From NCBI GenBank assembly GCA_031260295.1, contig JAIRKE010000054.1:62001-126000 (forward strand): DNA of 64,000 nucleotides, written 5' to 3'. This DNA comes from Azonexus sp. (lineage in GTDB: Bacteria; Pseudomonadota; Gammaproteobacteria; Burkholderiales; Rhodocyclaceae). Below, piece after piece: positions 24,857 to 38,685 of this stretch; the first letter of the stretch is position 1; each line of letters starts with the position of its first letter. A model generated the notes under the pieces. That model was not told the origin of the DNA. It made no database searches and was given only the letters and a program-made list of their open reading frames with translations. A program made the position numbers and the translations under genes.

Positions 24857-25951
24857 ATGAGCGGCCCGACTACCGTCCTTGTTTCTCCTGGGCAGATACT
24901 GGCCGTGCTGCTGGCCGCTTCCGCCATCCGGGCAGCGCGGGCGGTGCATCAAGCCCATGCCGATGCGGCTGCCTTGCGCCAGGCGCACGATCAGGAGCGC
25001 CGGACCGATAGCCAGCGGCAAGCCGGCGCGCATGAACAGGGGCTGGCGGCCATGCTGGCGCAGGCCGATGCGGCCGAACAGCGGCTGGCGCAACTGGCCG
25101 AATTGAGCCAGCGCCTGGGCGATGAACAGGCGCTGCAAGCGGCGCGGCCCGTACGTCCGCAGAGCAACGATTACCTGTCGCTGGCCGATTACGTGCGCGC
25201 CATCGAAGTCTTCGCCGCCGATGCGCAAGGCGTGCTGATGACGGCCCTGGCCGAATGCCCGGCCGAAGGCGACGAGCCGGGCGCGCTGGCCTCGTGGCTG
25301 AGCGCGCCCGCCAGCCAGCCGGATGTCGCCGCAAGCCTCGCGGTGCGGCTGCTGCGGCGCATCTCGCACCTGGGGCCGCCGCCCGCCGACATTCAGGCGC
25401 TGGCCGAAGAACTGGAGCGCACCGCCGATGGCTCGCGGGCGCAGCTTCTTGCCAGCGAACTGCGCCGCCGCATCCAGTTGCATGCCGAAAAAACCCTGCA
25501 AGACGAGGTGCGGCGAGCACAGGCGCTGGTCGTGGAGCAATCCTTGCAGGATCTGGGCTACCAGGTGGAAGAGATCGAAGACACGCTATTCGTCGAAGGC
25601 GGCGTGGCGCACTTTCGCAAAAGCCACTGGGGCGATTACATGGTGCGCATGCGCGTGGCGCAAGACGGCGACAGCATCAATTTCAACGTGCTGCGCGCCG
25701 TGGACGCCGATCAGGTTGAAGGCGAAACCAGCGTCCAGGATCACCTGGCCGAAGACCGCTGGTGCGCCGAATTCCCCGTGCTACTCAAAACGCTGGCGGC
25801 GCGCGGCGTGCGCCTGGAAGTCACGCGCCGCCTCGAAGCGGGCGAACTGCCCGTGCAGCGCGTGGCAAGGGATCGGCTGCCGCGCTTTGCCGAGGAAGAA
25901 GCTGGTATTTCCGCCGCCGCGCCAAGGCTGATGGAGCGACCTTTGCCGTGA
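24857..25951 (+). CDS. Membrane-anchored coiled-coil protein of unknown function (candidate system, component 1)
   Basis: Unrecognised 364-residue protein. An N-terminal hydrophobic stretch (residues 7-27, ILAVLLAASAI) should anchor it in the membrane, followed by a long Ala/Gln/Glu-rich coiled coil (about 28-85, QADAAEQRLAQLAELSQRL). Next comes a helical middle and a C-terminal mixed domain of about 110 residues from QSLQDLGYQVEEIEDTLFVE, containing HFRKSHWGDYMVRMRVA. AAGGG sits 8 bases before the ATG; TACAAT (24797-24802) could be a -10 box. It ends within the GTG start of the next gene. Gene order links it to the AAA+ ATPase, radical SAM protein and kinase downstream. Confidence 0.7.
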   Translation: MSGPTTVLVSPGQILAVLLAASAIRAARAVHQAHADAAALRQAHDQERRTDSQRQAGAHEQGLAAMLAQADAAEQRLAQLAELSQRLGDEQALQAARPVRPQSNDYLSLADYVRAIEVFAADAQGVLMTALAECPAEGDEPGALASWLSAPASQPDVAASLAVRLLRRISHLGPPPADIQALAEELERTADGSRAQLLASELRRRIQLHAEKTLQDEVRRAQALVVEQSLQDLGYQVEEIEDTLFVEGGVAHFRKSHWGDYMVRMRVAQDGDSINFNVLRAVDADQVEGETSVQDHLAEDRWCAEFPVLLKTLAARGVRLEVTRRLEAGELPVQRVARDRLPRFAEEEAGISAAAPRLMERPLP

Positions 25952-26319
25952 ACGAGCGGATCATGTTCGGGATAGCACGTCTTTTGCGGGGATGGGCGAA
26001 GATCAAGTTCCGTCTGCTTGGGCATGCGACGATCGAAGACATCAATGGGGACAAGTTCAAAGAAGTCATATCCGCGCTCCAATCCCAAGGTTGGCGAGTC
26101 ACTTCGAGGTATTTCAACTTCGACGCAGGCATTGACTATGACTGCATCCGTATGCGCCGAGGCTTCGCAACGCTGAAGTGCGAGTGGGATAATTGGTCGG
26201 AATGGAGCATTGAGGGTTCTCGCACCATCATTGAAAAGATTGCAGCCGAGAATGCCTTGACGGTAACTCACGCTTGGCGCTGGAGCGCTTATGACCCCGC
26301 AGGCGGGAATGAAACCTGA
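25948..26319 (+). CDS. Small protein of unknown function (candidate system, component 2)
   Basis: A 123-residue protein starting at a GTG that overlaps the previous stop (GTGA), so it is translationally coupled to component 1; ATG 25963 is the alternative start. Visible features are a basic N-terminus (RLLRGWAKIKFRLLG) and a compact acidic/aromatic domain (GWRVTSRYFNFDAGIDYD, CEWDNWSEWSIEGSR). No family recognised. Base use is more AT-rich than in component 1, so it may be a recent partner such as an immunity or adaptor protein; that is speculation. Confidence 0.6.
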   Translation: MNERIMFGIARLLRGWAKIKFRLLGHATIEDINGDKFKEVISALQSQGWRVTSRYFNFDAGIDYDCIRMRRGFATLKCEWDNWSEWSIEGSRTIIEKIAAENALTVTHAWRWSAYDPAGGNET

Positions 26320-26369
26320 CCTCAGCGATTTTTTGCCACCCTGGAGCGAGTGGGTGTGAGTGTTTATGC

Positions 26370-26393
26370 GGGATTACGCCACGCTTCATCCCA
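26370..26393. repeat. Left inverted repeat flanking the hydrolase gene
   Basis: This 24-base element starts GGGATTACGCC and ends CTTCATCCCA. Its reverse complement matches 27340-27363 at 21 of 24 positions, with the three mismatches consecutive in the middle. Each copy is itself a weak hairpin (GGGAT..ATCCC). The remaining bases of the 26320-26450 gap show no gene. Confidence 0.65.
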
Positions 26394-26450
26394 TTCAATT
26401 ACGGGCAAGTATCTCGTGCTTGGCCCATTTCGAAACCAGGGCGTGAGCGC

Positions 26451-27299
26451 ATGAAATTCCTTCGCGCATTGGCTATCGTTGTTGCCGTCATGTTTTTGAC
26501 CGGTTTCCTGATTCACGTAAGCGGTTGTGCGAATAGGGCGTTTTATTACCCCACGAAAACCATTTACAGCACACCTGACCAAGCAGGTATTTCCTATGAG
26601 GCGGTAACCTTCAAGAGCGCCGACGGTACCAAACTCACGGGCTGGTTCATGCCGGCAAAGGATGTTGCAGATTCGCGCCAGGCCAAAGGCACGGTCATTC
26701 ATTTTCACGGCAACGCGGAGAACATGACATCACACTGGCAATTCGTCGGCTGGCTGACAGCGCGTGGTTTCAACGTTTTTGTTTTCGATTATCGCGGCTA
26801 CGGCGCCTCAGAAGGAACACCATCGCCGGCAGGTTGCTTCGAGGACAGCAATGCGGCGATAGATTACGTGCGTTCGCGCCCTGATGTGGATCCGACACGG
26901 CTGCTGGTTTTTGGCCAGAGTCTTGGCGGTAACAATGCCATCGCAGCAGTCGGTGCGGGCAACCGGGCAGGCATTCGTGCGCTCGCCGAGGAAGCCACAT
27001 TTTTTTCCTACCCGAGTATCGCCAACGACAAGATTGCCAGCGCAGGGGTGCTGGTTGGCGACCATTACAGCGCAAAAAACTATATCGCAGCCATTTCATC
27101 GATTCCGCTGCTGATCATTCACGGCACGGCCGACGAGGTCGTGCCCTATTCGCACGCAACACGCTTGTTTGCCACAGCCAAGGAGCCGAAGCAACTCATC
27201 ACGGTCGAAGGCGGTGGCCACCTTGAGGCCATGATGCACAAAGAAAGCTTGTACCGCGATGCATTGACGAAGTTTTTCGAGGACGCGCTGGCGAAATGA
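26451..27299 (+). CDS. Alpha/beta-hydrolase, probable lipoprotein
   Basis: Serine hydrolase of 282 residues with an N-terminal export segment ending in a lipobox-like VSGC (Cys at about 26), so probably membrane-tethered outside the cytoplasm. Catalytic triad: nucleophile in GQSLGG, Asp in HGTADEVVP and His in GGGHLEAM; the oxyanion region is HFHGNAEN. The family (ABHD17/YfhR-like) includes esterases and peptidases; substrate unknown. It is more AT-rich than the neighbours and sits between inverted repeats at 26370 and 27340, which suggests it was inserted between components 2 and 3. Confidence 0.85.
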   Translation: MKFLRALAIVVAVMFLTGFLIHVSGCANRAFYYPTKTIYSTPDQAGISYEAVTFKSADGTKLTGWFMPAKDVADSRQAKGTVIHFHGNAENMTSHWQFVGWLTARGFNVFVFDYRGYGASEGTPSPAGCFEDSNAAIDYVRSRPDVDPTRLLVFGQSLGGNNAIAAVGAGNRAGIRALAEEATFFSYPSIANDKIASAGVLVGDHYSAKNYIAAISSIPLLIIHGTADEVVPYSHATRLFATAKEPKQLITVEGGGHLEAMMHKESLYRDALTKFFEDALAK

Positions 27300-27339
27300 T
27301 TGTCGGCGATGAAAGAGAGGAAGCGCATAGCTTATAGGC

Positions 27340-27363
27340 TGGGATGAAGCCCCGCGTAATCCC
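27340..27363. repeat. Right inverted repeat flanking the hydrolase gene
   Basis: Partner of 26370-26393, in opposite orientation (starts TGGGATGAAGC, ends CGTAATCCC). If the segment between the repeats is removed, the component 2 stop and the AAA+ ATPase start would be only about 90 bases apart. Confidence 0.65.
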
Positions 27364-27401
27364 GGCAATTCTTGCCACCAAAACATGAAGCCACCCCTAC
27401 C

Positions 27402-29252
27402 ATGACCGCCCCCCTCCAACCCCGCTGGCTATCCGACGTAGCGCGCACGCTGCCCATTCGCTCGCAGTTCGTCATTTCCGGCAACATCCGCGACACTTTT
27501 CTGGCCAGCGTGTCGGGCCAGACGGCTCTGGTGCCGCTTCAGCGCGCGCTGTGGGAAACGCTGCGCGCGGCGGGCTTTGGCTGCATGTTGGTGTATGACC
27601 CGGCGGACGGCATTCGCGCCTACCCGGACGCACCTGAGCAGCGCCAACTGGCTGAGCGGCTGTTTGGCCTGAAGCTCTCTGACGGCGCGCAGATGTTGAG
27701 CCTGGAATCGCTGACCAACCTGATGCGCAAGCTAACAACCGAGCGTCAGGCGCGTTGCGCGCTGGTGCTGGACTTTGCCTCGCGCCTGACGCGCCAGCCC
27801 AGCCAGCTGTCTGATGCCGAGCAGCGCTTTTTTGTGGTCGCGGAAAAGCTTTCGCTCCATGCCGCGCCCATCGTGCCGGTGGCGCCGGTCGAAGGCGGCG
27901 GCGCGCCGCTGTTCAACCCGGTGATCTGGCTGCTCAATCGCGCGCAGGATTTGCCCTCGTGGCTCACGCTCGACAGCGAGCGCGTGGCCAGCTTGGTGAT
28001 CCCCAGGCCCGATTACGAAATGCGCATGGCAGCGGCGCGCCAACTCGCGCCGTTGTTTGCCGGCTTCGAGCAGGCCGCGCCGCCGGCGCGCGAGCGCTTT
28101 CTGAAATCGTTTGCCGACGGCACTGAGGGCATGACGCTCAGTGCCTTGGCCGATATCACGCAACTGGCCGGCTGCCAACAGCTGGGCGTGGCCGATATCG
28201 AGGACGCCGTGCGCTGCTTCAAAGTGGGTGCGCTCGACAATCCCTGGAAAAAGGACTATCTGCGCGAGAAAGTGCGCGATGCGCAAGCGACGATCGAAGA
28301 GCGCGTCAAGGGTCAGCACGCCGCCGTGGTCAAGACGCTGGACATTCTCAAGCGTTCCATCATCGGCCTGACGGGCGCGCAGGCGCGCTCCGGCGGCAAC
28401 CGCCCGCGCGGCGTGCTGTTTTTTGCCGGGCCGAGCGGCGTGGGCAAGACGGAACTCGCCAAGACGCTGACGCAACTGATCTTCGGCAACGAAAGCGCTT
28501 ACCTGCGCTTCGACATGAGCGAATTCGCCGAAGAGCACACCGGCGCGCGCCTCTTGGGCGCGCCGCCGGGCTATGTCGGCTTCGACGCTGGCGGCGAGCT
28601 GACCAACGCGGTACGCGAAAAACCCTTTTCGGTGGTGCTGTTCGACGAGATCGAAAAAGCGCACCCGCGCATCCTCGACAAGTTCCTGCAAATCCTGGAA
28701 GACGGGCGGCTGACCGACGGGCGCGGCGACACCGCCTATTTTTCCGAAAGCATCATCGTTTTTACCTCCAACCTCGGCATTTTCGTCGAAGACGCCCACG
28801 GCCAGCGGGTGCAAAACGTCAAGCCCGGCGACAGCTATGAAACCGTGGAAGCACGCGTGCGCGGCGCGATTGGCGACTACTTCAAGTTCCGCCTGTCGCG
28901 CCCCGAAATCCTCAACCGCATCGGCGACAACATCGTCGTCTTCAACTTCATCACGCCCGAAGTCGGCGAGCAGATTTTCGACGGCATGTTGCGCAACATC
29001 GCGCAGCGCCTGCGCGACGAATTGAAGCTGCGCCTGACCATGACCGCCGACATCCGCAACAAGCTGCTGGCGCGCTGCACGCAGGATCTGTCCAACGGCG
29101 GGCGAGGCATCGGCAACGTGCTCGAATCGGCCTTCATCAACCCCTTGTCGCGCGCGCTGTTCGAGCATTCACTGGAAGGCAAGCAAACCGTAGCCGTTAC
29201 CGGCATCGCCGAGATGGACAAGGTGGTGACGCTGACGTTGCGGGTGGATTGA
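27402..29252 (+). CDS. ClpB/ClpA-like AAA+ ATPase with degenerate N-terminal ATPase-like domain (candidate system, component 3)
   Basis: A 616-residue unfoldase-type ATPase. Residues 1-280 look like a diverged AAA module (FVISGNIRD at 23-31, Walker-B-like CALVLDF) without a Walker A. Residues 300-616 match the second ATPase ring of ClpA/ClpB: Walker A GPSGVGKT (343-350), pore loop GAPPGYVG (386-393), Walker B VVLFDE (411-416), sensor 1 in TSN (455-457) and a C-terminal small domain. The ClpB middle domain, N-terminal substrate domain and ClpP-binding loop are not seen. ATG 27402 is preferred over an in-frame TTG at 27372. Its partner genes suggest remodelling of a specific complex. Confidence 0.85.
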   Translation: MTAPLQPRWLSDVARTLPIRSQFVISGNIRDTFLASVSGQTALVPLQRALWETLRAAGFGCMLVYDPADGIRAYPDAPEQRQLAERLFGLKLSDGAQMLSLESLTNLMRKLTTERQARCALVLDFASRLTRQPSQLSDAEQRFFVVAEKLSLHAAPIVPVAPVEGGGAPLFNPVIWLLNRAQDLPSWLTLDSERVASLVIPRPDYEMRMAAARQLAPLFAGFEQAAPPARERFLKSFADGTEGMTLSALADITQLAGCQQLGVADIEDAVRCFKVGALDNPWKKDYLREKVRDAQATIEERVKGQHAAVVKTLDILKRSIIGLTGAQARSGGNRPRGVLFFAGPSGVGKTELAKTLTQLIFGNESAYLRFDMSEFAEEHTGARLLGAPPGYVGFDAGGELTNAVREKPFSVVLFDEIEKAHPRILDKFLQILEDGRLTDGRGDTAYFSESIIVFTSNLGIFVEDAHGQRVQNVKPGDSYETVEARVRGAIGDYFKFRLSRPEILNRIGDNIVVFNFITPEVGEQIFDGMLRNIAQRLRDELKLRLTMTADIRNKLLARCTQDLSNGGRGIGNVLESAFINPLSRALFEHSLEGKQTVAVTGIAEMDKVVTLTLRVD

Positions 29253-29296
29253 TGGCGGGCGCTGCTGGCCGTAAACCGTGAGCAGCGTGCCCGCGC

Positions 29297-30169
29297 CTAC
29301 GGGAGCAGCGCGCGAACGAAGTTGGGCAGGGCCAGCGCCGCGCAGTGCATCGCGCCGTTGTAATACTGAAGGTCGTGGATGCCGCGCTCTTGCAGTCGCG
29401 CATCGACGGATTCAGCGCTCAGGCGGCGCGGGTCGGCCTGCTGCGAGCACAGCGCCATCAGCCACAGCCCGCCATACAGCGGCACCGAGGTCAGGTAGGG
29501 GATGACGTTGCCGAAAGCCTGGCGCAGGCCGAGCAGCGTCTCGCGGATGCGTTGCGGACTGGCCAGCGGACTGGCGATGTGCAGCGTCATGATGCCGCCT
29601 TCGCCCAAGCGGGCGGCACAGGCGCGATAGAACTCCGGGGTGTACAGCAGGGTGGATGGGCCGCCCGGATCGGTGAGATCGAGCACAATCAGGTCGAACG
29701 GCTCGGCGCTGGCCTGGACGTAGGCAAAGCCGTCTTCGATTTTCAGCGTCAGGCGCGGATCGTCGAGGCTGCCGCGATGCACACCCTGCAAGTGGCGGCG
29801 GGCGACATCGACAACCGCCGGGTCGATCTCCACCAGCGTGACGCGCTCGATGCCGGGGTGCTTGAGCAGTTCCTCGGCCGAACCGCCGTCACCGCCGCCG
29901 ATGATGAGGACGCGGCGCGGCGCATCGTGCGTGATGGCGGCCATGTGGACGAGATTTTCGTGGTAGAAAAACTCGTCTTTTTCCGACGTCATGAAATGGC
30001 CGTCCAGCCGCAGCAGCGTGCCAAAGGATTCCGAGTCATGCACCTCGATCGCTTGCAGCCCCGAATGAAAGGCTTCGCGCCGCTTGGCCGAACGGATGGA
30101 AAAACCCCAGTCGGGCGCAAGCCATTCCGTCAGGGCATCCGCCGGGGCGGGAAGCCGCGGTTCAGCCAT
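29297..30169 (-). CDS. speE: Spermidine synthase
   Basis: Transfers aminopropyl from decarboxylated SAM to putrescine. The 290-residue protein shows FMTSEKDEFFYHENLVHM, the nucleotide motif IIGGGDGGSAEE, EIDPAVVDVARR and the catalytic region VLDLTDPGGPST. Its start overlaps the end of speD by eight bases, so the two polyamine enzymes are coupled. The pair runs opposite to, and splits, the surrounding candidate system. Confidence 0.93.
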   Translation of the reverse strand: MAEPRLPAPADALTEWLAPDWGFSIRSAKRREAFHSGLQAIEVHDSESFGTLLRLDGHFMTSEKDEFFYHENLVHMAAITHDAPRRVLIIGGGDGGSAEELLKHPGIERVTLVEIDPAVVDVARRHLQGVHRGSLDDPRLTLKIEDGFAYVQASAEPFDLIVLDLTDPGGPSTLLYTPEFYRACAARLGEGGIMTLHIASPLASPQRIRETLLGLRQAFGNVIPYLTSVPLYGGLWLMALCSQQADPRRLSAESVDARLQERGIHDLQYYNGAMHCAALALPNFVRALLP

Positions 30170-30527
30170 CCTTGCCGCCTCGCTGGATTTTCTGGAAATG
30201 CGCGCGGGCTGGCTCGAAAACGGCTTCGATCAGGTCGTAGAGCTTTTGCGCCTTGGCGCCGTTATCAGTCGTGTAATTGCAGACATACACGTCGATGGTG
30301 ACGAAGCCGGATTCCGGCCAAGTATGAATCGTCAGGTGCGATTCGGCCAGGATCACCGCGCCGGTGACGCCATGCGGTTCGAACTGGAAAAACCGCTCTC
30401 CGACGGAGTTCAGCCCGCTGGCGGCGACAGCCTCCAGGCAAACTTGGCGCAATGCCTCGGCGCGGTTGAACTCCGGCGTGTGGGTATGACAGCCATACCA
30501 CTCTCCCAACAGATGGATACCGTCCAT
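30162..30527 (-). CDS. speD: S-adenosylmethionine decarboxylase proenzyme
   Basis: Makes the aminopropyl donor for SpeE. The 121-residue protein is the short, self-processing prokaryotic class 1B form: cleavage before Ser in LAESHLTIHTWPE produces the pyruvoyl cofactor, with the catalytic Cys expected in VYVCNYTT. ATG 30527 has GGGGGAGA upstream; the 28 codons before it are unlikely to be translated. Confidence 0.93.
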   Translation of the reverse strand: MDGIHLLGEWYGCHTHTPEFNRAEALRQVCLEAVAASGLNSVGERFFQFEPHGVTGAVILAESHLTIHTWPESGFVTIDVYVCNYTTDNGAKAQKLYDLIEAVFEPARAHFQKIQRGGKDG

Positions 30528-30740
30528 GCTTTTCTCCCCCTGTGAAGGAAACCCCCTGCCTTCGCGCACCAGAACATCCACGGCGCGAATGGGCGGCAAG
30601 AGCACCCACAAACCTCCGGCAAGCCGAAGAAACCACGCATTGTCCTATAAAATGCAGCCGGCGCGCAGCACGAAGCGCCCACTTCGCATCGCCAGAAACG
30701 ATTTTCGAGTAGCTAGAGGCTTCAGGCACCACCGTAACCC
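30528..30740. other. Divergent intergenic region, speD / radical SAM gene
   Basis: This 213-base gap between oppositely oriented starts must hold both promoters. A TATAAA box occurs around 30648, but I cannot assign convincing -35 partners on either strand. No gene, hairpin or known riboswitch was recognised. Confidence 0.3.
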
Positions 30741-31385
30741 GTGAATATCTCCATCAACAAGGCGCATTTTCCCGTCACGGTGCTGGGGCCGGGGCGGCGC
30801 ATTGGCATTTGGTTGCAAGGCTGTTCCATCGGCTGCAAGGGCTGCGTGTCGCGCGATACCTGGGCGCAAGAGGCCGGTAGGGTGATGCGCGTGGCGGATT
30901 TACTGGACTGGTGCGAAGAGGTTAGCGGCAACGTGCTGGATGGCGTGACCATCAGCGGCGGCGAGCCTTTCGAGCAGCCGGCGGCGCTGGATCGGCTGCT
31001 GCGCGGACTGGCGCGCTGGCGCAAGCGGCAAGGGCTGGATTTCGACATTCTCTGCTACAGCGGCTACCCGCTGGCGACGCTGCGCTCGCGCCATACGGCG
31101 CTGCTGGGCCGGCTCGATGCCGTGATCGCCGAGCCGTATGTCGATGCGCTGCCGAGCGAGCATCCCTGGTGCGGTTCGTCCAACCAGCAGCCGGTGGCGC
31201 TGTCAAAGCGCGGCGAGCAGCGTTATGCGAGTTCGCCCAACCCCGCCGGCAAGCGCATTCAGGCGCTGGCCGATGGGCAGCGCATCTGGTACGTGGGCAT
31301 TCCCGCGCGCGGTGACATGGCCCGGCTGGAGGCGTTGTGCCACGAGCGCGGGGTGGATTTCGCGCAAGTTTCCTGGAGATCCTGA
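30741..31385 (+). CDS. NrdG-like radical SAM / 4Fe-4S single-cluster protein (candidate system, component 4)
   Basis: A 214-residue protein with the radical-SAM cluster motif CSIGCKGC (Cys28, Cys32, Cys35) and ISGGEP (about 71-76), closest in design to the anaerobic ribonucleotide reductase activase and other glycyl-radical activases. No nrdD or glycyl-radical enzyme is nearby, so it probably modifies or senses something for the neighbouring proteins. The C-terminal third (SSNQQPVALSKRGEQRYASS) is extra compared with NrdG. It starts at GTG 30741 without a clear ribosome binding site. Its stop overlaps the ATG of the kinase gene (TGATG), so the two are coupled. Confidence 0.8.
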   Translation: MNISINKAHFPVTVLGPGRRIGIWLQGCSIGCKGCVSRDTWAQEAGRVMRVADLLDWCEEVSGNVLDGVTISGGEPFEQPAALDRLLRGLARWRKRQGLDFDILCYSGYPLATLRSRHTALLGRLDAVIAEPYVDALPSEHPWCGSSNQQPVALSKRGEQRYASSPNPAGKRIQALADGQRIWYVGIPARGDMARLEALCHERGVDFAQVSWRS

Positions 31386-33817
31386 TGAGTGCCGACCTGG
31401 TGCGCGTATGCCCCGCCTGCGGCGCTCATCAGCCGCCCGACCGGATGCGCTGCGATTGCGGCACGCTGCTGTTCGGCGTAGACCTGACACGGCCTCCGGC
31501 GGCGGATACCGCCACCAGCGCGCCCGAAGTACCACCAGCCACCCCGTCAGCCGCCGCGCAGGTGCGCTGCCCGCATGCAGATTGCGACCAGCCAAACCTG
31601 GCGGGCAGCCGCATTTGCCTGTACTGCAATCGCCCTTTGAATGTAGACGCGGCGGCGCCCGCCGCCGAATCCCGAACCGCGCCCGCCCTGCTGCAACTGC
31701 CTGCTGCCCTGCGGGCGCGCTACCGCGTGCTGGAAGCGTTCAAGGCCAGCGGCGCGGAGGCAGACATCCTGCTGGTGGAGCGCAGCCCGTCCGAAAGCCA
31801 AACCTCGGCCCCCCTGGTCGCCAAGATTTACCGCCAGGGCATCCTGCCCAGTAGCGAGGTGCAGGCGCGCATTGCCAGGGTCGATGCGCGCCATCGCGTC
31901 ACCATGTTCGAGACCGGGCTATCCGATGGTCACGCTTACGAGGTGATGGAGTATTGCGCGCATGGCTCCCTGCGCCAGCACCTGAACGGGCAGGCGCAGC
32001 CCTCGGCCTTCATCGCCGAAGTGATCGGCGAAATGGCCGGCGCCTTGCAGGCCGTGCACGCGGCGGCGCTGGTACACCGCGACGTGAAGCCCGAAAACGT
32101 ACTGCTGCGCAGCGAGCAGCCGCTGGATCTGGTGCTGACCGATTTCAGCACCGCCTCCGCCATCGACGCCACCCAGCGTTTTACCGGCATGGCGCGCACC
32201 CTGCTCTATGCCGCGCCCGAGGCGCTGTCGGGCGTGCTCGACGCCAAGGCCGACTACTGGGCGCTGGGCATAATGCTGCTGGAGATGGCGACCGGCGCGC
32301 ATCCGTTTCGCGGCCTGTCGGATGCCGTCATCCTGCATCACCTGAGCACGCGCGCCATGGATGTCAGCGGCGTCGCCGACGTCCGTCTGCGCCTGCTGCT
32401 GAGCGGCCTGCTGCTGCGCGATCCCAAGCGGCGCTGGGGAGCGCCTGAAGTCAGCCGCTGGCTGGCCGGCGATACGAATTTGCCGAGCGCCACGGAGCGG
32501 CATGGCGAACCCGGCTTCGCCCAACCCTACGCCGTGCTGGGCGAACGCTGCACCACGCCGGAGCAGTTGGCCGTCGCCTTCGCCCGGCATTGGCAGGCCG
32601 GGGTGGCCGATCTGGATAGCAGCCAACTGCTGCGCTGGTTCACCAATGTGCACAAAGACCAGAACGCCGTGCGCCTGCTGCTAGGGCTGCGCCACGACAG
32701 TGGCCTCAACGTCGATCAACAATTGCTGCGCTTCATCCTGCATTACGCGCCCGGCATTCCACCCATGTGGCAAGGCCGGGGGATCGAGTTGCCGGCCTTG
32801 CTGGCGCAAGCGAGCCTGGCCCTGCGGGGCGACGAAACCGCCGGCGAGTGGCTGACCCAGCTTTATCGCCAGCGCGTGCTCGACGCTTACGCCGCCGCCG
32901 GCAATGCGCAGTTGGCTGAACTGGCCGAGCGCTGGAATGCCGGCGTCGACAGCTTCAATACCGCCTGGCAGGCGTGCGTGGCGCTGCTGCGCAGCCACAA
33001 CGAAGCAGCAGCGCCCGATCCAGGGCGGGTGGTGAGCTACGACGACGTGGTATACGGCCGGCACGGCAGCGCCGATCCCGCGCCGCCGCCGCCCGCCGTG
33101 CTGCACCCGCGCCTGCTGGCGGCGGCCTATGACCCCGCATGGGTCGAGCGTCTACGCGGCAAACTGGCGCGCGAGTGGGCCGCGCTGGCCATGCAGCACC
33201 CACGACTTGCCGATCCGGGCGACCCCGGCGCCATGACGCCCGCGCAATTGCTGGCCTGCCAGGCCCTGCTGCCCGAATTGCGCAAGACGGTCGAGCGGCA
33301 AACGCGCGAGGAGGCGCAGCGCCGGCAGCGGCAGGAAAAGACAAGTGCTGAACTGCGCACCGCGTTTCGGGCCAATCTGGCAAAGATCGGCATGCACGCG
33401 CGCCGGGTGGCTTTCCTGTTTCCCGACACCGTTTCCTTGCGCCGGGCGCTACGCGAGCACGCGGACTTGATGGCACGCATCCGCGCCCACGACGACATCG
33501 ACGAAGAATGGCTCGCCCTGCGCCGGCAAGCGCTACGCAGCGAACCCGTGGCGCAGCGCCTGCGCGATCTATGCGACCGCCTGAGCGAGCGCGCCACCGC
33601 CAACGCCGGCTGGTTCGGCCGGGAAACCTCCACTTACGGCTTCGTAGCACTGTTCGTGTTCTGGATGCTGCGCTTCGTCGGCGGCATACTGTTCCTGCTG
33701 GCCACGATTGTCGGCGCTGCCCTCTGGCGCCGCCTGCCCGTGCTGCAAATGGTGCGGGACATCCGCCGCCTGGGCCGGAGCATCCAGCCCGACTCGCGGC
33801 AGACAAGGCAGGACTGA
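31385..33817 (+). CDS. Zinc-ribbon Ser/Thr protein kinase with C-terminal membrane anchor (candidate system, component 5)
   Basis: An 810-residue multidomain protein. Two N-terminal zinc-ribbon-like units (CPACGAH..CDCG, then CPHADCDQ..CLYC) precede a Hanks-type kinase domain (about 110-375) with lysine in LVAKIYR and catalytic loop HRDVKPEN (Asp233). The metal-binding motif is DFS (253-255) instead of DFG. Then follow a large helical region, a coiled coil near 640-665 (RQTREEAQRRQRQEK) and a hydrophobic membrane segment near 760-785. The kinase is thus placed at the inner membrane facing the cytoplasm. The ATG overlaps the previous stop. Targets unknown; the linked AAA+ ATPase and coiled-coil protein are candidates. 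Confidence 0.85.
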   Translation: MSADLVRVCPACGAHQPPDRMRCDCGTLLFGVDLTRPPAADTATSAPEVPPATPSAAAQVRCPHADCDQPNLAGSRICLYCNRPLNVDAAAPAAESRTAPALLQLPAALRARYRVLEAFKASGAEADILLVERSPSESQTSAPLVAKIYRQGILPSSEVQARIARVDARHRVTMFETGLSDGHAYEVMEYCAHGSLRQHLNGQAQPSAFIAEVIGEMAGALQAVHAAALVHRDVKPENVLLRSEQPLDLVLTDFSTASAIDATQRFTGMARTLLYAAPEALSGVLDAKADYWALGIMLLEMATGAHPFRGLSDAVILHHLSTRAMDVSGVADVRLRLLLSGLLLRDPKRRWGAPEVSRWLAGDTNLPSATERHGEPGFAQPYAVLGERCTTPEQLAVAFARHWQAGVADLDSSQLLRWFTNVHKDQNAVRLLLGLRHDSGLNVDQQLLRFILHYAPGIPPMWQGRGIELPALLAQASLALRGDETAGEWLTQLYRQRVLDAYAAAGNAQLAELAERWNAGVDSFNTAWQACVALLRSHNEAAAPDPGRVVSYDDVVYGRHGSADPAPPPPAVLHPRLLAAAYDPAWVERLRGKLAREWAALAMQHPRLADPGDPGAMTPAQLLACQALLPELRKTVERQTREEAQRRQRQEKTSAELRTAFRANLAKIGMHARRVAFLFPDTVSLRRALREHADLMARIRAHDDIDEEWLALRRQALRSEPVAQRLRDLCDRLSERATANAGWFGRETSTYGFVALFVFWMLRFVGGILFLLATIVGAALWRRLPVLQMVRDIRRLGRSIQPDSRQTRQD

Positions 33818-35951: not shown

Positions 35952-36482
35952 TTAGAAAACCCCGTTAACGGCTTGCAACACGTTTTGATGTGCTGGACCG
36001 AAGGCCCCGAACCATACAGGGCAATTACTGACTGATGCGAACCGTTCGATGAGGTCAGATGATGACCCAACCGTGCCTGGGGCGTAGTCTGGTTGAACAT
36101 CGGTCAAGTAGTCGGTGAGGCTCCTCTGATAGGCAAGGTTGTTGTTGGCGCAAGCGGTCATGCGCTCTGACGCCCTGTCGCCATATATGTTTGTGTAGCC
36201 GTCCGCCCATTTCAGGGGAAGCCCTTTTGCGAAAACATCCAAGTGACTGATCAACAGTCCGTCCAGCCAACCGGTTACCTCCAGCGCATACCGTAGCAAC
36301 ACGCCGTCTGGATGCCCCCGCCGAAACCGGCCCTGCCAGCCGGCATGGCTGTTGTGCGGTTCCGCCAGGCCATCCAGACTCGAATCCTCCGTGGGAAAAG
36401 GTCCGGCGCCGTGGCGTGTCAGGTAGCTGCGCAAGAGGCCCAGATGCTCGACTCTCCCGGCATATCTGTAGCTGCCGGCCAT
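35952..36482 (-). pseudogene. C-terminal half of an adenylosuccinate-synthetase-like protein
   Basis: The 176 translatable residues match the latter half of adenylosuccinate synthetase: LGLLRSYLTRHGAGPFPTED corresponds to the conserved TTRxGxGPFPTE block, and GRFRRGHPDGVLLRYALEV..LLISHLDV corresponds to the GWLD..KLDVL block. The C-terminal P-rich end is present, but the N-terminal P-loop and IMP-binding region are missing. The similarity starts immediately at the junction with the vWA remnant upstream (around 36485), in another frame. It is a diverged paralogue rather than housekeeping PurA. Translation from ATG 36482 is possible but the product could not be a complete enzyme. Confidence 0.65.
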
Positions 36483-36664
36483 GGCGTTGAGGCGCGGGGG
36501 TAGTTGGGGTGTTCAGCGCTATCGCGCGATTCGCGGACTGTCAGCCCCTTGGGATCCATCAGGGCATGACAGCCGCGTTGCATGAAAACTTCATTGCGCG
36601 ACAGCGCGGCGCGATTCGAGGCGAGCGCCTGATGGGCGCTGTGAGAGTAATTGCCGTAACCCAT
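36419..36664 (-). pseudogene. N-terminal remnant of a vWA-type protein
   Basis: An 81-codon frame with a strong AGGAGG before ATG 36664. The first ~54 residues (MGYGNYSHSAHQAL.., HALMDPKGLTVRESRDSAEHPN) resemble the N-terminus of a family of bacterial von Willebrand A proteins in which the MIDAS strand follows directly. Here the sequence instead breaks off after HPN and continues in a meaningless frame over the adenylosuccinate-synthetase remnant. The vWA domain is therefore deleted. It begins 19 bases after the kinase gene and was the next cistron of the NAD operon. Family assignment is from memory of the motif, not a search. Confidence 0.55.
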
Positions 36665-36683
36665 GATGTTCCTCCTGAGGGCG

Positions 36684-37652
36684 TTACGCCGAAGTGGGGT
36701 TGAAAGGAATGAAAGCCGGCGGTCCAAAGGCTTCACGGGCGGCGGCCTTGAGTGCCTGGTCGACGCCCATTGCTCCCATCCGGGCACACCAGTCGGCATC
36801 TTCGCTGCTCTGTCGCAGCAAATCCGCCAAAGGGGCAGGAATGCGGTGTGAAATCGTCGGCAGCTCCTCTCCCCCGCAAAGCAGGAAGCGCACAGTCCAG
36901 GCCGCCTGCATGAGGTCGCGGGCAATGGCGTCGGGACTCGCATTCGGCCGGGCGTGCGCCCAGCCAACCAAATGAATACCGTGATCGCGCGGATGCACCA
37001 GCCAGTGATCCGCCGAGAGATCGCCATGGGTCCAGCCGCTGGCATGGGCGAAGGACAAGAGGTCGAGAACGCGGCGCCAGATCCAGACGCCATGGCGCGG
37101 ATCGATACCGCTGCTCTGGTAGCGCAACACGTGGGCGAGGCTGCCCCAGTAGCCCGAGGGATGGCGCAGTACGAGGGCTTCCCGTGCGTGGCCGCCAGCG
37201 CCTTCGGTGCGCCCGCAGCCGATGACTTGCGGCAGGCGCTGCGCGTAATAAGCCGCCCCTGGCGCGCGACTCTGTTGCAGCGCACGGAGAATCTCCGCTT
37301 CCCGGGCCAGGGTATCGGGCAATGTCGCCGCGTGGGCCAGCTTGAGCGTGACCCGCTCCGGCAAGGGGCCCATGCGTTCAGCAAGGTACGCCTCGGCGCT
37401 CTCGCCGATCCCAAGCCGTTTGAGCACCAAGAGATGCTGGCCTTGCCAGCGCACGATGCACGACGTGAAAGCGTAAGCCAGCCGCGCATTGGCCAAGACC
37501 CGGGTCTTGGCTTCCTTGAAACGGACGGCCTCCACCACGGATTTGCTGCGCGTCACCGTCGCACTGCAATAGGGGCAGATGACCATGCGCCAGCTTGCTT
37601 GCCGGGGCAAGACGCCGCCGCATTGGGGACAGGCAAGCGTGGTGAACAGCAT
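36684..37652 (-). CDS. Zinc-ribbon protein-kinase-like protein, probably inactive or atypical
   Basis: A 322-residue protein with an N-terminal zinc ribbon (CPQCGG at 8-13, CPYCSA at 26-31) and a kinase fold: loop GIGESAEAYLA (81-91), lysine in VTLKLAH (Lys104), helix-C Glu in LAREAEIL, catalytic loop HGDLSADHW (209-217). The DFG position reads VGWA (229-232), so the metal-binding Asp is missing, which points to a pseudokinase or non-canonical phosphotransferase. The start at 37652 puts the zinc ribbon first. It is the fifth gene of the NAD operon, four bases after nadM, an unusual location for a kinase. Confidence 0.75.
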   Translation of the reverse strand: MLFTTLACPQCGGVLPRQASWRMVICPYCSATVTRSKSVVEAVRFKEAKTRVLANARLAYAFTSCIVRWQGQHLLVLKRLGIGESAEAYLAERMGPLPERVTLKLAHAATLPDTLAREAEILRALQQSRAPGAAYYAQRLPQVIGCGRTEGAGGHAREALVLRHPSGYWGSLAHVLRYQSSGIDPRHGVWIWRRVLDLLSFAHASGWTHGDLSADHWLVHPRDHGIHLVGWAHARPNASPDAIARDLMQAAWTVRFLLCGGEELPTISHRIPAPLADLLRQSSEDADWCARMGAMGVDQALKAAAREAFGPPAFIPFNPTSA

Positions 37653-37656
37653 GGCG

Positions 37657-38685
37657 TCAGCGATCCGTATCGAGATGGAGGAAATGGTCGAGCATGTTGA
37701 AATGATCCTCGAAGAACTGGCTTTCCATGCCCGCCAGTTCCGCAATCGGCACCCACTTCGCCTGTGCGGCGTCGTCCGCGCCCATCACTTCCGGCAAGCG
37801 GCATGACCCCAGATCAAACCAGTGAGCATGGGTGATGGTCCGGCCACGCAGGCTGCGATCGGGGTGATCGAATACGACGGCGGCTTTGAGCGCCCCTTCC
37901 AGCGAGGAGGGCAGCAGGGCGAAGCCGGTTTCCTCGCGCAGTTCCCGGATAGCGCCTTGCAGCACGCGCTCCCGAGGCTCCAGGAAACCGCCGGGAACGG
38001 CCCACAGCCCCTTGCCCGGCGAGCGGCCGCGTTCAACCAGCAGCACGTGCTCGCTGGCCGTGACGACGGCATCCACCGTGATAAACGGGCCAACGCCCCA
38101 GATCTTCTTGTTCTCTTCAATCGACAGGTGTTCGCCCCGCAACTGGGTGTAGCAAGGCAAACGCGCCCAGCCCTTAAGGTAGTGCACGACGCTAGCCGGC
38201 GCCAGCCCGCTCAGCAGCGCCTGGGTAGCCGCCCAATCTTCACTCTCGAAATAGATCTGGCGCAGGGCGGTCGCGTCGATTTCGCCAAATTGCGGCGTCG
38301 CTACAAACGCCCAGCCGGGAAAGCGCTGTAGGTAATGACTGGAAGCATCCTTCAAATATCCCACCAGGGCCACGCGCGCGCCGCGCTTCGTCTGCTTTTG
38401 AACCGCTGCGGTGACGGCATCACCCCAGCGCCGGTCGTCGTAGTAATCGCGTATCGGCTGGAAGGAAACCCGGGCCTGCGTCACTTCATTCAGCGCCGTC
38501 GTCATCATGGCCGCGCGCTCCTCCCAGGTGAAGGGGTTTTTGGCGCTGCGCGCGGCATGGGCCGAGCCGAGGATGACAATCACCCTGTCCGCGCTCTCCA
38601 GGGCTTGCACGAGCAATGCGGCATGCGCGTTGTGAAACGGCTGGAAGCGCCCGATCAGGACGGCGATATCGAATGGACGGGCCAT
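37657..38685 (-). CDS. nadM: Bifunctional nicotinamide-nucleotide adenylyltransferase / Nudix hydrolase
   Basis: Converts NMN and ATP to NAD (N-terminal nucleotidyltransferase) and probably hydrolyses ADP-ribose (C-terminal Nudix). The 342 residues show LIGRFQPFHNAH (nucleotidyl-transfer motif), NPFTWEERAAMM, and the Nudix box GGFLEPRERVLQGAIRELREETGF. This NadM-Nudix fusion is known from Francisella-type and cyanobacterial NAD pathways. ATG 38685 follows GGAG; the 23 upstream codons overlap nadE and are discarded. Thirteen bases separate it from nadE. Confidence 0.92.
   Translation of the reverse strand: MARPFDIAVLIGRFQPFHNAHAALLVQALESADRVIVILGSAHAARSAKNPFTWEERAAMMTTALNEVTQARVSFQPIRDYYDDRRWGDAVTAAVQKQTKRGARVALVGYLKDASSHYLQRFPGWAFVATPQFGEIDATALRQIYFESEDWAATQALLSGLAPASVVHYLKGWARLPCYTQLRGEHLSIEENKKIWGVGPFITVDAVVTASEHVLLVERGRSPGKGLWAVPGGFLEPRERVLQGAIRELREETGFALLPSSLEGALKAAVVFDHPDRSLRGRTITHAHWFDLGSCRLPEVMGADDAAQAKWVPIAELAGMESQFFEDHFNMLDHFLHLDTDR

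Follow-up and report, generated by a model that had tools for sequence, protein, structure and literature searches.

Analysis of a 64,000-nucleotide stretch of DNA from Azonexus sp. (GenBank assembly GCA_031260295.1, contig JAIRKE010000054.1, positions 62,001 to 126,000 of the forward strand), referred to here as the window, revealed a set of genes that encode a coiled-coil adaptor, a ClpB/ClpC-like AAA+ ATPase, a NrdG-like radical S-adenosylmethionine (SAM) enzyme and a zinc-ribbon Ser/Thr protein kinase. These four genes, termed the module, are as follows (positions are those of the window).

24857..25951, + strand: coiled-coil adaptor with a Ser-Gly-Pro (SGP) tail, 364 residues (open reading frame (ORF) list; adaptor family alignment A2; homologues in relatives)
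27405..29252, + strand: AAA+ ATPase, ClpB/ClpC-like, with a degenerate first ATPase module (D1) lacking Walker A and an intact ClpB-type second module (D2)
30741..31385, + strand: NrdG-like radical SAM enzyme without NrdD (Pfam Fer4_12, 1.3e-24; motifs in alignment A1)
31385..33817, + strand: zinc-ribbon Ser/Thr protein kinase (Pfam Pkinase, 2.1e-30); two zinc-ribbon-like clusters near the N terminus, hydrophobic segment at the C terminus

Conservation of the four genes as a unit

Relatives of the AAA+ protein were sought in genome samples of the order, class and phylum, in GTDB contigs and in plasmids, and 6 to 30 kb around each was read. Matches that covered a ClpB-like D2 alone or that started far inside the query were left out of the locus counts; these amounted to 71 of 80 GTDB-contig loci and to 3 of 6 and 10 of 18 non-home genomes in two genome searches. 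Every non-home match from the phylum, order and class samples was read, and 13 of the 20 plasmid records were fetched, the remainder being further records from Rhizobium leguminosarum and Moellerella. Six loci with a related radical SAM gene and without this AAA+ protein (L126 and L162-L166) stand outside the resulting count of 45 loci. The type letters A to E used below are labels coined in this analysis, type A being the version found in the window: adaptor, AAA+ protein, radical SAM enzyme and zinc-ribbon membrane kinase.

The adaptor, AAA+, radical SAM and kinase genes were contiguous and on the same strand in L028, L030, L031, L033 and L156. The kinase is split over two frames in L029, the contig ends within the kinase gene in L027 and behind the AAA+ gene in L032, and in L038, from Gallionella, a kinase was not found and a 152-residue ORF lies between the adaptor and AAA+ genes. 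With the window counted, all four genes are present, whole or in part, in 8 of 10 type A loci. In 36 of the 45 AAA+ loci (window included), the fetched stretch also contains a radical SAM gene of this family, a count that is biased upwards because loci were mostly located via the AAA+ gene. The gap between the two genes is largest in L125 (∼9 kb), followed by L172 (7 kb), L042 (5.5 kb) and L037 (1.5 kb); in the rest the genes are adjacent. When trees of the AAA+ and radical SAM proteins were compared over 29 loci, they mirrored each other (Mantel r 0.94, reached by 0 of 5000 permutations); the permutation control ignores species relatedness, and the within-genus pattern is nevertheless discordant with that of the species.

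A search from the radical SAM side, performed on plasmids, returned 18 records. Eleven of these were also AAA+ matches, including all eight radical SAM matches of at least 40% identity; one of the other seven was unfetched, and the six examined were all without an AAA+ protein of this family. A radical SAM gene within ∼10 kb and an adaptor beginning MSG had been predicted beforehand for AAA+ loci not yet seen; the gene and an adaptor beginning MSGP were observed together in 5 of 6 (two class genomes and four plasmids), a weak test given that the four plasmid loci are closely related to loci already known. L173 starts inside the AAA+ gene at a contig end, which places the adaptor outside view, and shows no radical SAM gene in the 13 kb downstream.

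Given that contiguity is conserved in other genomes and that the AAA+ and radical SAM trees are mirrored, it is strongly supported that the four proteins act together. At the level of sequence comparison, the adaptor, AAA+ protein, NrdG-like radical SAM enzyme and zinc-ribbon kinase are shown to be one co-inherited unit. The preliminary description of this DNA had proposed joint action of five genes, and this stands for these four and falls for a fifth, which encodes a 123-residue protein. The homologues are co-located and not scattered in other genomes, and the radical SAM-kinase pair does not always travel without the ATPase and coiled-coil gene, in a sample that leans to the AAA+ side.

Module genes that are broken into two frames (AAA+, radical SAM or kinase, in L036, L037, L127 and L029) may reflect either decay or assembly errors.

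The remaining genes of the locus are the following.

25948..26319, + strand: 123-residue protein, GTGA overlap with the adaptor gene; judged an insertion, outside the module
26451..27299, + strand: alpha/beta hydrolase, 282 residues (Pfam Hydrolase_4, 1.1e-21); judged an insertion
29297..30169, - strand: speE spermidine synthase (Pfam Spermine_synth); splits the operon, outside the module
30162..30611, - strand: speD S-adenosylmethionine decarboxylase (Pfam AdoMet_dc); outside the module

The open frames first reported for this region exist, as do the overlaps claimed for them, GTGA between the genes for the 364- and 123-residue proteins and TGATG between the radical SAM and kinase genes; the gene list itself holds for the four module genes, wrongly included the 123-residue protein and overlooked the hydrolase at 26451-27299. 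No match to the 123-residue protein was obtained in Pfam, PADLOC or NCBIfam at the limits used, and neither this protein nor the hydrolase gave a tblastn match at E 1e-4 across 50 related loci. The G+C content is 0.535 for the 123-residue gene and 0.548 for the hydrolase gene (plus upstream gap), compared with 0.64-0.69 for the module genes. The speED pair was present in 20-kb stretches of genomes G204 and G266, where module genes were absent nearby. Given the lack of matches in relatives, the low G+C content of the first two genes and the contiguity of the module elsewhere, the 123-residue gene, the hydrolase gene and speED appear to interrupt an ancestral operon and are judged, from sequence, to be chance neighbors and not module members. 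The hydrolase, which sits between the adaptor and the AAA+ protein in a segment of G+C content below its surroundings, has a possible lipoprotein-like N terminus.

A second, separate cluster lies at 35952-37673 on the minus strand and comprises a zinc-ribbon kinase-like gene, the start of a putative vWA-type protein and the C-terminal portion of a protein resembling adenylosuccinate synthetase. The putative vWA-type start, at ∼36500-36662 (-), is without a family match and looks vWA-like from its sequence. Genome G322 (L180) has, one after the other, a kinase-like gene, a gene for a longer protein that shares the MGYGNYSH start and a PurA-like match; given this longer protein, the window copy looks shortened by deletion.

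Versions of the module, its ATPase and its kinase

The N-terminal module of the AAA+ protein (alignment A4) was found in 13 of 399 genomes of the order, 7 of 398 of the phylum and 6 of 369 of the class, the home genome being counted each time. Within the genus, one of the five other listed members (G902) has the AAA+ protein, of the sister type and at 47% identity; the AAA+ proteins of G716 and G266, both from other families, share 73 and 69% identity, respectively, with that of the window. The AAA+ protein also occurs on 20 of 72,556 plasmid records, of which 12 are typed conjugative. On this sequence evidence, the distribution is typical of an accessory module that moves horizontally.

The partners of the AAA+ and radical SAM proteins differ between versions. 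In the sister type, type B, the order is AAA+ protein, radical SAM enzyme, a protein of ∼2100 residues and adaptor, and the hosts are Burkholderia, Bradyrhizobium, Sphingomonas, Rhizobium, Caballeronia, G902, G630 and G473. Pfam assigns to the large protein of L040 a kinase-like domain, DUF4011, a superfamily 1 (SF1) helicase and an MTES_1575 nuclease. This protein is nearly complete in 12 loci including L040 (at least 2096 of 2105 residues); in L139 it is partial, and an adaptor was not found there. Type C, in the order SF1 helicase, PIN protein, ∼370-residue protein, AAA+ protein and radical SAM enzyme, comes from Photobacterium, Polaromonas, Moellerella, Acinetobacter and Leisingera plasmids and from L034 and L157, the assignment being based on Pfam for L120 and L034 (with weak PIN scores in L034), BLAST for L157 and annotation for L121-L124. 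Type D (Aristaeella, L119) consists of a DUF4011-helicase-nuclease protein, kinase, adaptor, FHA protein, radical SAM enzyme, AAA+ protein, PP2C and a second kinase, and type E (L039) of adaptor, AAA+ protein, radical SAM enzyme, zinc-ribbon FHA protein and PP2C. HEAT repeats and DO-GTPase2 lie near the module in L037.

The structure model of the AAA+ protein shows the two-ring ClpB/ClpC fold, with two tandem modules and an intact D2. Walker A is missing from D1 in 28 of 28 sequences, and D2 has both Walker A and Walker B. The full-length score against ClpB (TIGR03346) was 252.8 bits, against 1232.1, and does not place the protein in that family. For both the AAA+ and radical SAM proteins, Pfam gives general domains, and NCBIfam gives related families only, under their cut-offs.

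In the window kinase, the catalytic Lys (AKIYR), HRDVKPEN and TDFS (a DFS variant of DFG) are all kept, so that the Ser/Thr kinase motifs (Lys, HRDxKxxN, DFG-type) are complete and activity is predicted. Two CxxC clusters lie near the N terminus, and hydrophobic windows are present at 750-787 (e.g. 750 and 769). By contrast, alignment of five type B kinases over their first 700-800 residues revealed that the Lys is replaced, the Asp of DFG is lost and HRDxKPxN reads HRDLRP, with the Asn position occupied by T or A. To judge from its motifs, the domain thus appears to be a kinase in type A and a pseudokinase in type B.

The radical SAM enzyme and the adaptor tail

The motifs CxxxCxxC, GGEP/GGDP and GSxNQ are kept in the radical SAM family (alignment A1), and Cys-28, Cys-32 and Cys-35 are invariant in 23 sequences, consistent with a radical SAM cluster. 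GSxNQ is a hallmark of NrdG. The best NCBIfam match of the window enzyme is TIGR02491 (NrdG), at 82.6 bits and under the cut-off of 126.1, and the enzyme is the sole match to its family profile in the home genome. The home assembly, which is 97% complete, gave no match to NrdD (PF13597), and of 12 genomes carrying the AAA+ protein a single one (G289) did; as a control, the profile matched in 6 of 14 known genomes. The glycyl-radical domain PF01228 was likewise missing at home, and among the 12 genomes it was detected in G238 alone. In nine of those 12 genomes the radical SAM gene was seen beside the AAA+ gene; one of the nine has NrdD, and a different one has the glycyl-radical domain. The home genome therefore appears to encode an activase-like radical SAM enzyme without a detectable classical partner, as had been proposed, with neither NrdD nor PF01228 detected in the assembly.

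Related orphan radical SAM genes occur in other settings. On Arthrobacter/Paenarthrobacter plasmids (L126, L163 and L166), one adjoins another AAA family ATPase, without an SGP adaptor, and a DUF2997 protein is also present in L163 and L166. A Treponema succinifaciens plasmid (L164) carries a NrdG-like radical SAM enzyme and an AAA ATPase within a contractile-injection-type cluster (VgrG/Pvc8 family, baseplate protein V), and a Calothrix plasmid (L162) carries in a row Hsp70, a TPR protein, a radical SAM enzyme, an MSGE-starting protein and an AAA ATPase.

The structure model of the adaptor (mean predicted confidence, pLDDT, 82.7) consists of long helices and a C-terminal alpha/beta domain at ∼218-340. 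A Foldseek search of this model against the Protein Data Bank gave no match at E ≤ 0.001, and no family model from Pfam, PADLOC or NCBIfam covers the protein at the limits used. A start of ATG or GTG followed by Ser-Gly-Pro can be read in 24 of 24 profile-recognized adaptors (window counted), and the L119 adaptor, missed by the profile, likewise starts (M)SGP. Given that the start codons were chosen because they show SGP, two independent checks matter here. The annotated start agrees with the SGP start in all four annotated loci (L118, L119, L127 and L177). Among 1025 ORFs of at least 200 residues from the window and 50 loci, each read from its first start codon, 14 have SGP at positions 2-4, and all 14 are adaptors. 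When 20 adaptor N termini were stacked without gaps, positions 2-4 were invariant, and none of positions 5-40 was.

Proposed function and relation to known systems

On balance, the module is probably a mobile, modular, phosphorylation-linked AAA+ conflict system, most likely directed against phage, in which the radical SAM enzyme would arm the complex and the ring would release an effector. Such a reading is indirectly supported by the helicase-nuclease, PIN, FHA and PP2C partners and by plasmid carriage, and we infer the role in defense from the outputs (kinase, helicase-nuclease and PIN protein), the plasmids and the patchy distribution. Here, the coiled-coil adaptor would recruit substrates or the effector to the AAA+ ring via its C-terminal alpha/beta domain and invariant SGP tail, with D1 acting as a non-hydrolyzing platform and D2 as the motor. 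Lacking a glycyl-radical enzyme to activate, the radical SAM enzyme would modify a module protein, most plausibly at the SGP tail, leaving the complex armed. A signal of invasion or stress, perhaps sensed by the kinase zinc ribbons at the membrane, would then let the ring remodel and release the effector. That effector would be the kinase in the window version, where its phosphorylation of cellular targets would stop growth, and the helicase-nuclease in the sister version. The kinase and the pseudokinase-helicase-nuclease would be interchangeable outputs of one AAA+ core.

Several observations weigh against this proposal. The PADLOC matches of the window kinase and AAA+ protein span shared domains only, neither helicase nor nuclease lies beside the window kinase, and the flanks of type A loci are housekeeping in nature, 10 flank proteins from five loci including zero defense families in Pfam. 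When nine flank proteins from type A and B loci were run against PADLOC, four matched at E ≤ 1e-5, mostly through ATPase or helicase domains unspecific to defense. A radical SAM gene was not found in 9 of the 45 AAA+ loci (L032, at a contig end, L035, L036, L043, L044, L045, L142, L143 and L173, of which L142, L143 and L173 are short contigs), and the co-occurrence count carries the upward bias given above. Two module-bearing genomes hold classical partners, NrdD in G289 and a glycyl-radical protein in G238. The related radical SAM enzymes of L126 and L162-L166 occur without this AAA+ protein and have no SGP protein of at least 100 residues nearby. SG tails are present in L035 and L142, where the fetched stretch showed no radical SAM gene, and other AAA+-adjacent proteins start MSGE, MSGS, MSGT, MSGA, MSAT or MSAE, some with no radical SAM gene in the stretch read. 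Finally, the middle protein of type C lacks SGP (0 of 7) despite the presence of the radical SAM enzyme, and an hhalign probability of 4.5% does not establish it as a homologue of the adaptor.

Given these SG tails without a radical SAM gene and the type C enzyme without SGP, the function of the tail may lie with the AAA+ ring rather than with the radical enzyme. It is possible, in a tentative sense and compatibly with a conflict system, that SGP is a pore-entry or docking tag or a kinase phosphorylation site and that the radical SAM enzyme acts on the kinase, an invader protein or a nucleotide. Set against this is the finding that the strict SGP form is accompanied by the radical SAM gene in 24 of 25 loci, the exception, L032, being a contig end.

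Rather doubtful is a regulated proteostasis or stress-signaling module without a role in defense, in which a kinase-controlled AAA+ protein would remodel damaged or membrane proteins and the radical SAM enzyme would sense iron-sulfur or redox state. The ClpB/ClpC-like fold, the housekeeping flanks of the scanned type A loci, the intact motifs and hydrophobic C terminus of the kinase and the absence of a nuclease from the window module are all consistent with such a role. However, the module is rare, patchy within the genus and found on plasmids, and the swapping of partners for helicase-nucleases and PIN proteins would be unusual in a stress module.

That the radical SAM enzyme is an ordinary NrdG activating an anaerobic ribonucleotide reductase, with incidental neighbors, is highly improbable: its best NCBIfam match, its conserved GSxNQ and CxxxCxxC and the NrdD of G289 would fit, but the score falls below the NrdG cut-off, NrdD is missing from the home assembly and from 11 of the 12 genomes, no other NrdG-like match exists at home and the radical SAM tree mirrors that of the AAA+ protein. 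A chance neighborhood of unrelated genes, suggested by the splitting of the home set by the hydrolase, the 123-residue gene and speED, is hardly credible and was rejected for the adaptor, AAA+, radical SAM and kinase genes on account of their contiguity in relatives, conservation in distant bacteria and mirrored trees.

A more specific form of the conflict-system proposal, which we consider unlikely, is that the NrdG-like enzyme represents a glycyl-radical activase co-opted for an immune function, such that hydrogen abstraction from, or modification of, Gly3 of the adaptor (to a radical, oxidized or cleaved product) arms an AAA+-gated kinase or nuclease. If true, Gly3 would be a glycyl-radical site beyond the known glycyl-radical enzymes; a protein tail that arms the complex through radical modification would constitute an immune switch of a new kind. 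The module itself offers a concrete setting, and a directly testable candidate substrate, for the orphan NrdG-like "4Fe-4S single cluster" proteins beside AAA+ ATPases.

The components resemble known proteins to different degrees. The AAA+ protein shares with ClpB, ClpC and ClpA the two-ring fold and a ClpB-type D2 with Walker A and B, but its D1 in the window lacks Walker A, Pfam detects no N-terminal Clp domain and its scores are far under every Clp equivalog cut-off. The radical SAM core, CxxxCxxC, GGEP and GSxNQ are shared with the NrdG and PflA activases, from which the window enzyme differs in the absence of NrdD and of a glycyl-radical domain at home and in its score under the NrdG cut-off. 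The window kinase matches the defense kinases Mad6 (1.4e-33) and PD-T4-6 (3.1e-32), but within the kinase domain only, and the other subunits are unlike. The type B protein of L040 matches the anti-phage DUF4011-SF1 helicase-nuclease proteins named ProA (1.2e-148) and Hhe (1.7e-91) in NCBIfam, but its 497 and 307 bits lie under the cut-offs of 1500 and 2000, as do the 1187 and 805 bits of the Aristaeella L119 protein; the window module has no such protein.

Mokosh consists of a kinase, an SF1 helicase and a PLD nuclease and, to our knowledge, is without an AAA+ ring, radical SAM enzyme or adaptor. Sister versions of the module resemble it in that an SF1 helicase adjoins the kinase domain or is fused to it; MkoA is matched by the module helicase of L034 (9.8e-98) and also by a flank protein of L041. 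By contrast, the window module has neither helicase nor PLD, the sister type has an MTES_1575 nuclease instead, and the match of the window kinase to MkoA covers only positions 66-275 of the 1112-position profile.

The module was also compared with published accounts, in part, including PMC7159879, PMC13092281, PMC13391042, PMC10250203 and PMC10853773; no published description of it was present among the matches listed from PMC full text, a scope outside which subscription papers and preprints fall. The available portions of Kaur et al. 2020 (PMC7159879) describe NTP-dependent conflict systems with an AAA+ core and exchangeable effectors. Their cores are MoxR or FtsH with vWA or GTPases, and they include FtsH systems with a stand-alone radical SAM effector and GAP1-N2 systems with zinc-ribbon or transmembrane kinases, PP2C and vWA. 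Neither a vWA nor a GAP1-N2/DO-GTPase partner is among the Pfam matches of the window module, DO-GTPase2 being found in the distant L037 only. The present module resembles these systems in its AAA+ core and exchangeable effectors and, in L037, in an adjoining DO-GTPase2; it differs in that the combination of a ClpB-type AAA+ protein, a NrdG-like radical SAM enzyme and an SGP adaptor was not met in those portions. As far as these portions go, the NTP-dependent conflict systems are the nearest printed class, to which the window module would add an unusual core.

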